Virus record (IMG/VR): IMGVR_UViG_3300043567_000778
Span: 1-46,645 of that record
Source: a virus
DNA length: 46,645 bases
Reading direction: 5' to 3' (one strand)
The position numbers and the translations under genes are program-made. The notes under the pieces were generated by a model. That model saw nothing but the letters and a program-made list of their open reading frames with translations, was not told the origin of the DNA and made no database searches. Positions 23,745 through 39,739 of this stretch are shown here, one piece after another (position 1 is the first letter of the stretch; each line of letters begins with the position of its first letter).

Positions 23745-23751
23745 TATTTAT
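23745..23751 (-). promoter_or_regulatory. Late promoter motif (ATAAATA)
   Basis: The motif reads leftward 36 bp before the TTG start of the giant fibre gene, with AGAGGAC as ribosome-binding site between them. Confidence 0.6.
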
Positions 23752-24308
23752 TATTGATTTTTTCTTCTTCCTATGTTATTTCCAACTCTTCCTAAACTAA
23801 AATCATCACCGGGACACTCTTTAGAAAACTTATTATCTACCCCATTATTCCACCATTTTTTTCCATAACTTGGATTTTTTTCTTTAGACATTACTCCCTT
23901 TAGTCCTTTACTCATATTGTGTCTGTGCTCTTTCGTAAATATTTTTTTCTTTGCTGCCTCACTTAATTTTCGTTTATGTTCATCTGTAAATTTCTTACCT
24001 TTATGACTATCACTTAACTTCTTTTTAGTTTCCTTACTTAAACGACGACCAGCACATCCTTCTCCACCATCGGTCATATTTCTCAAAATACCTGTGCCCA
24101 AATCTTTTCTGCCCAATATGGCAATCATATAGATTTCGTGCTTTCGTGCTTCTTCATCTGTAAGATTTTTCTTTAAATAAATTATCCTTTTTTTTTCTTT
24201 AGGAACAACAATTCTATGTAAATTATTAGTAATTCTTCCTGCCTTACCCTTACCAATATAATAAGGTGTGCCGTCTTCGCGCAAGTATGCGTAAGTGTAA
24301 TATTCCAT
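23751..24308 (-). CDS. GIY-YIG homing endonuclease
   Basis: The protein has 185 residues from MEYYTYAYLREDG. The catalytic module shows YTYAYL ... YYIGKGKAGR (the GIY and YIG strands with Arg) and later HEIYMIAILG with the Glu, then NMTDGGEG. Basic NUMOD3-like repeats follow (RLSKETKKKLSDSHKGKKF, FTDEHKRKLSEAAKKKIF, FTKEHRHNMSKGLKGV). All expected catalytic residues appear intact. This is a free-standing phage homing endonuclease of the Seg/I-TevI class. It lies 0.4 kb from a group I intron that has no ORF of its own. Confidence 0.85.
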   Translation of the reverse strand: MEYYTYAYLREDGTPYYIGKGKAGRITNNLHRIVVPKEKKRIIYLKKNLTDEEARKHEIYMIAILGRKDLGTGILRNMTDGGEGCAGRRLSKETKKKLSDSHKGKKFTDEHKRKLSEAAKKKIFTKEHRHNMSKGLKGVMSKEKNPSYGKKWWNNGVDNKFSKECPGDDFSLGRVGNNIGRRKNQ

Positions 24309-24331
24309 CTGCTTTTTGTTTGTGGTAATAC

Positions 24332-24339
24332 TATTTATA
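24332..24339 (-). promoter_or_regulatory. T4-type late promoter
   Basis: A perfect TATAAATA reads leftward. Initiation near 24326 would give RNA carrying only the proximal arm of the inverted repeat. Confidence 0.7.
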
Positions 24340-24347
24340 AAAGAAAA

Positions 24348-24363
24348 GGAGCATTTCTGCTCC
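24348..24363 (-). terminator. Rho-independent terminator
   Basis: GGAGCA-GAAA-TGCTCC followed by TTTTC reads leftward; the GAAA tetraloop makes it stable. It ends the transcript of 24406-24711. Confidence 0.75.
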
Positions 24364-24405
24364 CAATCTTTGCTTCTGAATAACCACAAACAAAAGCATT
24401 ATTAT

Positions 24406-24711
24406 TTAGTTAGTGAGATCCTCCTCATCAAGATCATATTGAAGGTCTTCTGGCAAATCTTGTGGGTTTTCTATATCAACTGGAAAGAAGCAAGGATGTG
24501 CTTCTTCATCTATCAAATAGAAAGAATTTAAATATAAGTCTTCTGGTTCGTATGCTAGATATTTGTCTGCTTCTCTACAAAGATCCTGATCATATAGATG
24601 ACCTTCTGGCAATTCATCAAAAGTAAATGGCAACTCGTTGATGAAATACATTTTCACTATCATACTGCCATTATTATACCAGCAGTATGCTTGAGTGATT
24701 TTATAAGACAT
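24406..24711 (-). CDS. Acidic hypothetical protein
   Basis: The protein has 101 residues from MSYKITQAYCWYNNGSMI. GGGAG eight bases upstream favours 24711 over an ATG at 24726. It is very acidic at the C-terminus (LQYDLDEEDLTN). A late-type ATAAATA lies upstream. It lies between the endonuclease gene and the tRNAs. Function is unknown. Confidence 0.7.
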   Translation of the reverse strand: MSYKITQAYCWYNNGSMIVKMYFINELPFTFDELPEGHLYDQDLCREADKYLAYEPEDLYLNSFYLIDEEAHPCFFPVDIENPQDLPEDLQYDLDEEDLTN

Positions 24712-24732
24712 AGGATTTGCTCCCATATCTTA

Positions 24733-24739
24733 TATTTAT
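24733..24739 (-). promoter_or_regulatory. Late promoter motif (ATAAATA)
   Basis: The motif reads leftward into 24406-24711, about 22 bp before the ATG, in the short gap after the tRNA 3' end. Confidence 0.5.
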
Positions 24740-24753
24740 TTTAACCAGTTCAA

Positions 24754-25025
24754 TACTCGCGGTCGGATTCGAACCGACGCTGGATGGATTTTCTTACCAC
24801 TACGACTTTCGCCGCCTTATAAAGTTTGTGGTCTGGACTATACCTTCACCATACCTTTCGGTTTAGGTGTTCCCCGTCTAGTCTCTACACCTTCATCTTG
24901 CGATGCTTGGCTCGGTATTGCCATTTTACAGGTTTCACCGAATTTGAGGAATTACACCCATAAAGTTTCCTAAATGGAGCTCAATTTTCATAAGTCCACT
25001 GCCTCTTCCGCTGGGCTACGCGAGC
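24754..25025 (-). tRNA. tRNA with UAA anticodon after splicing (Leu-like), interrupted by a group I intron
   Basis: Exon 1 (25025-24992) carries acceptor GCTCGCG, the D arm and anticodon stem GTGGA with CTT. Exon 2 (24792-24754) carries AAAA, TCCAT, a five-base variable region, T arm GTCGG-TTCGAAT-CCGAC and acceptor CGCGAGT with discriminator A. Joined, the loop reads CTTAAAA, anticodon UAA (Leu). The acceptor closes with G-U at 1-72, as in the neighbouring tRNA. The variable region is short (class I), unlike ordinary bacterial tRNA-Leu, so amino-acid identity is less certain than the anticodon. CCA is not encoded. Confidence 0.8.
24793..24991 (-). ncRNA. Self-splicing group I intron (199 nt) in the tRNA anticodon loop
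   Basis: The intron follows U34 (U before the splice site) and ends in G. Core landmarks in order: AATTGAGC near the 5' end (GAG can pair with exon CUU, giving a U-G at the splice site), TTCGGTGAAACCT, P/Q-type GGCAATACCGAGCCAAGC, R-type GTAGAGACTAGACGGGG and S-type ATAGTCC. GACTA and TAGTC form P7. These closely match, in order and wording, the cyanobacterial tRNA-Leu(UAA) intron as I remember it. There P7 is GACTC/GAGTC, a compensated change. No ORF fits inside. Confidence 0.9.
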
Positions 25026-25043
25026 GTATTAAGTTGTAAGACC

Positions 25044-25072
25044 ATAATAACTCAAAAAGTCCTTATGGTCAA
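25044..25072 (-). promoter_or_regulatory. Promoter for the intron-containing tRNA
   Basis: TTGACC (25067-25072), 17 bp, TATTAT (25044-25049), reading leftward to a start near 25037, 12 bp before the mature tRNA end. GACCATAA and TTATGGTC form an 8-bp stem across both hexamers. The spacer (GGACTTTTTGAGTTA) resembles that of the promoter at 9580-9608. It may instead be only an RNA processing hairpin between the two tRNAs. Confidence 0.6.
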
Positions 25073-25144
25073 TACTTCCGCCTGGACTTGAACCAGGATG
25101 ACCCCGTTATAAGCAGGGCGCATTGACCTTTATGCGACGGAAGC
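25073..25144 (-). tRNA. tRNA-Ile(UAU)
   Basis: A complete cloverleaf: acceptor GCTTCCG/CGGAAGT (G-U at 1-72), D stem GCAT/ATGC, anticodon stem CCCTG/CGGGG with loop CTTATAA (anticodon UAU, reading AUA), T arm CCTGG-TTCAAGT-CCAGG, discriminator A. AUA is a codon an AT-rich phage may use more than its host. No encoded CCA. It is first in the tRNA operon. Confidence 0.9.
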
Positions 25145-25150
25145 ATAAAC

Positions 25151-39301: not shown

Positions 39302-39739
39302 ATGTCATACAAAGGAAAATATAAACCGTCATATCCAGAAAAATACTCTGGTGACCCAACAAATATTATATACAGATCTTTATGGGAACGTAAATTTTGC
39401 GTCTATTGTGATACAAATGAAAAAATAATTGAATGGTCATCAGAAGAAAAATGTATTCCTTATAGATCTCCATTGGATGGAAAGGTTCATAGATATTTTC
39501 CCGATTTCCTTATCAAAGTCAAAGAATCTGATGGGAGCATTAAAAAATATATGATTGAAATTAAACCATCAAAACAAACAGTTCCCCCCACTAAACCACA
39601 AAGACAAACAAAGAAATACATTGCTGAGGTTTATGAGTATGCAAAGAATCAATCAAAGTGGGAAGCAGCACGAGAATGGTGTGCTGATCGTGGATATGAA
39701 TTCAAGGTGATTACCGAACATGAATTAGGTATCAAGTAA
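39302..39739 (+). CDS. 4: Head completion protein gp4
   Basis: The protein has 145 residues. YRSLWERKFCVYCD, then YFPDFLIKV and YMIEIKPSKQ give the E...PD...(E/D)xK pattern of the TnsA-like nuclease fold recognised in T4 gp4. It joins the filled head to the tail connector. Full length for the family. It overlaps the next gene by one base. Confidence 0.85.
   Translation: MSYKGKYKPSYPEKYSGDPTNIIYRSLWERKFCVYCDTNEKIIEWSSEEKCIPYRSPLDGKVHRYFPDFLIKVKESDGSIKKYMIEIKPSKQTVPPTKPQRQTKKYIAEVYEYAKNQSKWEAAREWCADRGYEFKVITEHELGIK

Follow-up and report, generated by a model that had tools for sequence, protein, structure and literature searches.

The window analysed here, a 46,645-base virus contig (IMG/VR record IMGVR_UViG_3300043567_000778), very probably carries a self-splicing IC3 intron in a cyanophage tRNA-Leu(UAA) gene, a member of a phage-borne family found across phages and tRNA genes that reached this phage along with its entire tRNA gene, when a ~330-bp block was exchanged with another phage by recombination. 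The contig belongs to a freshwater cyanobacterial virus: the closest phage with a sequenced genome is S-SRM01, which infects freshwater Synechococcus (~90% over the baseplate genes), and the genes that flank the tRNA are typical of Kyanoviridae.

The interrupted tRNA gene and its relatives in phages

With introns allowed, ARAGORN found a single intron-bearing gene in the window, a tRNA-Leu(UAA) on the minus strand (c[24754,25025]) with a 199-nt intron between U34 and A35 (24793-24991). The original prediction had proposed a 199-nt group I intron in the anticodon loop of a phage tRNA at exactly these coordinates. The same gene is invisible to ARAGORN in a default run of the window without introns. 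The 5’ exon (24992-25025, minus strand) comprises the acceptor 5’ strand, the D arm, the 5’ strand of the anticodon stem and C32 U33 U34, while the 3’ exon (24754-24792, minus strand) supplies A35-A38, the 3’ strand of the anticodon stem, a 5-nt variable loop, the T arm, the acceptor 3’ strand and A73. Once joined, they form a full cloverleaf of 73 nt with a UAA anticodon. The long variable arm of a canonical tRNA-Leu is absent, and the 5-nt loop found in its place by ARAGORN is common to the intron-less orthologues of S-SRM01 and S-CREM1. The former, which also supports the 5’ exon, is a 73-nt tRNA-Leu(UAA) that lies uninterrupted in the corresponding position, with the baseplate hub gene on one side and the tail fibre gene on the other, and is listed in the phage’s paper (PMC8557907); the S-CREM1 gene, also uninterrupted, occupies the same site.

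Comparison with related contigs extended this observation. At 37 intron-bearing loci (a figure that includes repeat fetches of one contig) from five exon backgrounds, in tRNA-Leu with both short and long variable arms, removal of the intron yields exactly the sequence of a tRNA found elsewhere without it, which fixes the boundaries independently of any model. These natural intron-plus/intron-minus pairs with identical exons could be used for splicing and homing tests. At the locus orthologous to that of the window, the intron is present in 7 of 53 distinct tRNA-Leu-bearing sequences. The cyanophage locus sampled as L010-L089, upstream of a phrog_4134 gene (24406-24726 in the window), holds either a short tRNA-Leu(UAA) (73-76 nt, with a short variable loop) or a long one (83-88 nt), and both forms accept the intron.

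The assignment to group I is borne out by RF00028, which scores 58.6 bits (E 1.9e-12; cut-off 50) at 24817-25002 on the minus strand. A covariance model of ten phage tRNA introns, R1, from which the window’s clade and close relatives had been left out, matched the window once, at 24793-24991 (minus strand) and with the exact predicted ends (202 bits, E 7.6e-55). We conclude that the tRNA-Leu(UAA) gene of this phage contains an IC3 tRNA-type group I intron, the IC3 label resting on R1, which was made in this analysis from phage tRNA introns rather than being a published IC3 model.

The intron of the window is widespread in kind rather than unique, being part of a large phage-borne family of tRNA introns. 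The core pattern matches at least 120 viral contigs and, among the matches listed, 139 of the 156 fetched IC3 cores of viral contigs sit within tRNA genes, so that the earlier description of introns in phage tRNA genes as rare is unsupported; the loci were gathered with phage-derived patterns, and the figures are minima that favour this intron type. The 139 cores represent 94 distinct sequences, at least 79 of them in tRNA-Leu(UAA) at 34|35, and the remaining targets are tRNA-Lys(UUU), Lys(CUU), Thr(UGU), Arg and Met/Ile(CAU). A cyanobacterial-type variant of the pattern matched only two viral contigs among the matches listed. Phages with names that carry tRNA introns include Agrobacterium phage Atu_ph07, the huge phages LR756501 and LR756511, and Gordonia phage Daredevil (tRNA-Lys); in Microcoleus phage My-WqHQDG an annotated tRNA-Arg of 286 nt contains a 213-nt intron according to ARAGORN. 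At least one of the viral occurrences in tRNA genes (L270, tRNA-Arg CCU) is nearly identical to a Skermanella intron, and may be bacterial DNA.

Default tRNA finding overlooks such genes, as the window itself illustrates, and RF00028 missed 5 of the 20 intron-bearing viral loci checked. In long-arm tRNA-Leu, ARAGORN misplaces the splice site and names the gene Tyr, His or Ser; we re-resolved these sites by the exon U, the terminal G and a 7-nt loop, with L081 and L346 among the few still miscalled. In Daredevil, the tRNA-Lys(UUU) at 1839-2150 has a 238-nt IC3 intron, unannotated in the record and nearest to actinobacterial tRNA-Lys introns. The same core also occurs outside tRNA genes (L003, L007, L258, L285, L291, L302, L327, L329 and L341), for example between pieces of the capsid gene in Pelagibacter phage HTVC120P and in phage Deep1-GF2-KM23-C739, where RF00028 detects two copies.

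A 2014 review placed every phage group I intron known at that time in a protein-coding gene, even though phage tRNA genes are numerous (PMC3984707), and we found no later report of group I introns in phage tRNA genes in the open-licence literature. The IC3 tRNA intron type itself was already known; it is the phage-tRNA setting that appears to be new and undescribed in that literature. Introns of phage protein genes and the psbA introns of cyanophages, which have free-standing endonucleases, are likewise phage-borne group I elements with adjoining endonuclease genes, but the intron of the window targets a tRNA gene and lacks an ORF.

Exchange of the tRNA locus between phages

Blast segments and informative sites delimit a recombinant block at 24743-25083 (minus strand) that resembles contig L071, while both of its flanks resemble the intron-less sister contig L010. 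The block ends lie within 25044-25083 on the left and 24716-24743 on the right, giving ~330 bp, and a tRNA-Ile(UAU) gene, the upstream neighbour of the tRNA-Leu (25072-25145, minus strand), stands at the left edge. As the block holds both the whole tRNA gene and its intron, the phage obtained the two together by recombination with another phage, and the mosaic of an L071-like block in L010-like surroundings indicates that the block spreads between phages. L071 additionally carries a 742-bp block with an HNH endonuclease directly 3’ of the tRNA, which is precisely absent from the window.

In line with the extent of the block, the locus could be a passive cassette, moved between phages by ordinary homologous recombination and containing an intron without active mobility, an account that we regard as a serious contender even though we lean against it. 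The 199-nt intron contains no ORF, hence no endonuclease of its own, and whole-locus recombination has a precedent in the cyanobacterial tRNA-Leu introns (Rudi 2002, as cited in PMC3984707). Neither endonuclease type near the locus is associated with the intron there. When distant HNH types are counted, HNH genes at the orthologous locus accompany 2 of 7 intron-bearing and 8 of 46 other sequences (p 0.60), and HNH was accordingly rejected as a general partner, only a long type being linked. We likewise rejected a homing-endonuclease-like ORF at 23751-24389 (minus strand; NUMOD3 by PHROG/Pfam, with a GIY-YIG-like N-terminus by eye), which is absent at this place in S-SRM01 and whose co-occurrence with the intron at the locus is not significant (p 0.52).

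A purely passive cassette is, however, difficult to reconcile with the fact that, at one and the same locus, introns agreeing at 97-98% over 168 nt sit in two structural types of tRNA-Leu whose exons are unrelated, for which exchange of the whole gene is insufficient. Together with the presence or absence of the intron within identical exons, this requires that the intron be gained or lost on its own. Moreover, at least 11 of the 12 informative contigs (several of them near copies) have the long-type HNH on the 3’ side of a tRNA-Leu that bears the intron, whereas more distant HNH genes adjoin tRNAs both with and without introns. In one contig (L002), and by the ARAGORN call also in L399, the HNH gene is located inside the intron. 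We thus favour an intron whose spread in relatives of the window phage would be driven by a neighbouring HNH endonuclease. On a separate note, HNH endonucleases of the phrog_10822 type lie 30-170 bp downstream of tRNA genes for Leu, Ser, Val, Thr and Asp (L376-L402), which suggests that they form a tRNA-targeting family of free-standing endonucleases.

Relation to bacterial introns

The original prediction held that a cyanobacterial tRNA-Leu intron core had moved between host and phage. The resemblance on which this was based is real: the tRNA-Leu(UAA) intron of cyanobacteria (Anabaena, Xu and Kuhsel 1990) belongs to the same class, has the same U34|A35 site, the same U.G at the 5’ splice site, the same terminal G and a similar P3-P8 core, and the exon site GACTT|AAAATC is, as claimed, identical. 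Many Proteobacteria and members of other phyla also have an intron at this tRNA-Leu site, and its sharing is therefore no sign of a cyanobacterial source. In addition, the P7 of cyanobacterial tRNA-Leu introns reads GACUC/GAGUC, in contrast to GACUA/UAGUC in the window, a difference noted from the outset, and their host tRNA has a long variable arm.

Two careful trees unite the intron of the window with cyanophage introns in a well-supported clade (98/99 and 100/99) that lies amid further phage introns, while the cyanobacterial chromosomal tRNA-Leu introns constitute a clade of their own (100/100) on a long branch, with the intron of the window outside it (a quick tree and its clade test were set aside, being 146 log-likelihood units worse than a tree that the free search had missed). 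The position of that cyanobacterial clade differs between the two trees, whose deep branches are weak, and AU tests give p 0.44 and 0.10 for an ancient common clade with the cyanobacterial tRNA-Leu introns, values at which such a clade is neither established nor rejected. A single group of these introns with the other sampled bacterial introns (the CAU ones left out) is rejected (p 0.0003).

Recent capture from the tRNA-Leu(UAA) gene of the host cyanobacterium, for which the identical site, the common class and the AU values could be cited, is very unlikely. The better matches to the intron of the window in 292 cyanobacterial genomes reach ~70-85% identity, and no long match exceeds ~80%; one tRNA-Leu example (L589, from genome G122) shows ~68% over a part. 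The highest-scoring cyanobacterial matches to the phage model are instead tRNA-fMet introns (131-161 bits, against ~96-132 bits for the tRNA-Leu introns examined), the best of which are 74-80% identical to that of the window. Combined with the placement of the intron within a phage clade, the different P7 and exons that match phage tRNAs, these values speak against a recent exchange with the host.

The tRNA-fMet introns differ in their tRNA and in their position (33|34), and some reach ~650 nt, leaving room for an endonuclease ORF; a common origin with the phage intron is neither established nor rejected by the trees. Bonocora and Shub reportedly described an intron-encoded endonuclease in such a cyanobacterial tRNA-fMet intron in 2001. 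The Azoarcus-type tRNA-Ile(CAU) introns of Betaproteobacteria are also IC3 and take positions among those of phages in both trees, but they are inserted at 36|37 rather than 34|35. A broader and speculative reading, which we consider improbable, is that phages act as a principal reservoir and carrier of IC3 tRNA introns, with one phage-borne family moving among tRNA-Leu, Lys, Thr, Arg and Met/Ile genes by means of adjoining tRNA-targeting HNH endonucleases, and that some bacterial tRNA introns (tRNA-Ile, tRNA-fMet, possibly the cyanobacterial and hence plastid tRNA-Leu) descend from it. A phage-borne family of tRNA introns would redirect the search for the reservoir of an intron type that is among the oldest known.

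Two further tRNA-Leu(UAA) introns deserve mention. That of L591, in cyanobacterial genome G188, groups with phage introns (95/89 with L289, on long branches) instead of joining the cyanobacterial clade, possibly through exchange between phage and host. The other was read in plasmid pCTX-M3 (NC_004464.2, IncL/M), where a gene resembling tRNA-Leu(UAA) carries an IC3-type intron at ~61,823-62,121, ~650 bp from aac(3)-IId; this intron groups with an alphaproteobacterial tRNA-Leu intron, and similar intron DNA is present in 1,270 plasmid records, mostly of Enterobacteriaceae.

Core structure and predicted splicing

In an alignment of 18 phage introns, 95.2% of cells pair, compared to 26-43% in controls with slid partners, and 28 of the 50 core pairs show changes on both sides, which supports the helices P2 to P9 and the pseudoknot of P3 and P7. 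Compensatory changes occur in P3, P4, P6a, P7 and P8, and the two P6 base pairs are invariant. In the window (all on the minus strand), the P3 5’ strand UUCCUC (24946-24951) faces GGGGAA (24870-24875), a helix paired in all sequences with compensatory changes in four of its six pairs. P7, the guanosine-binding helix, is formed by GACUA (24879-24883) and UAGUC (24836-24840); the pairing that had been claimed for it extends to 100% of the aligned introns, and its last pair changes from A-U to U-A in four sequences. A GAG guide (24980-24982) pairs with exon C32 U33 U34, forming a U.G at the 5’ splice site. The exon-final U and closing G, both recognized in the original reading, accompany this guide without exception in the 79 distinct viral tRNA-Leu introns that were examined, although the U and the terminal G also served as criteria when their splice sites were resolved. 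The folding energy of the single sequence was uninformative (z = -1.55).

These data leave little room for a degenerate intron in a tRNA pseudogene that no longer splices, which we judge highly improbable: RF00028 scores barely over the cut-off, and P2 and P5 contain two mismatches and one, respectively, but the same mismatches occur in relatives, the core helices P3, P4, P6, P7 and P8 are all paired, with covariation in the core, and the exons yield a full cloverleaf. An assembly or contamination artefact, conceivable for a single metagenomic virus contig, can be dismissed, as the same arrangement is seen in many contigs of different samples and in the records of Atu_ph07 (L004), LR756501 and LR756511, and the flanks are typical Kyanoviridae genes.

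The conserved structure and intact exons thus point to an intron that is predicted to excise itself. In the predicted reaction, the 5’ exon (CUU) of the precursor would pair with the GAG guide of the intron, a guanosine bound at P7 would attack after U34, and the freed 5’ exon would in turn attack after the terminal G. The resulting 73-nt tRNA would read UUA, the commonest leucine codon of the phage (36% of leucine codons, counted over 13 large ORFs; the contig has 36% GC), so that a tRNA with a UAA anticodon is a plausible help and the phage probably uses it; the 5-nt variable loop, unusual for a tRNA-Leu, makes charging with leucine uncertain. Elsewhere in the window, a protein encoded at 39302-39739 has a TnsA-like endonuclease N-terminal domain (PF08722, E 8e-26).
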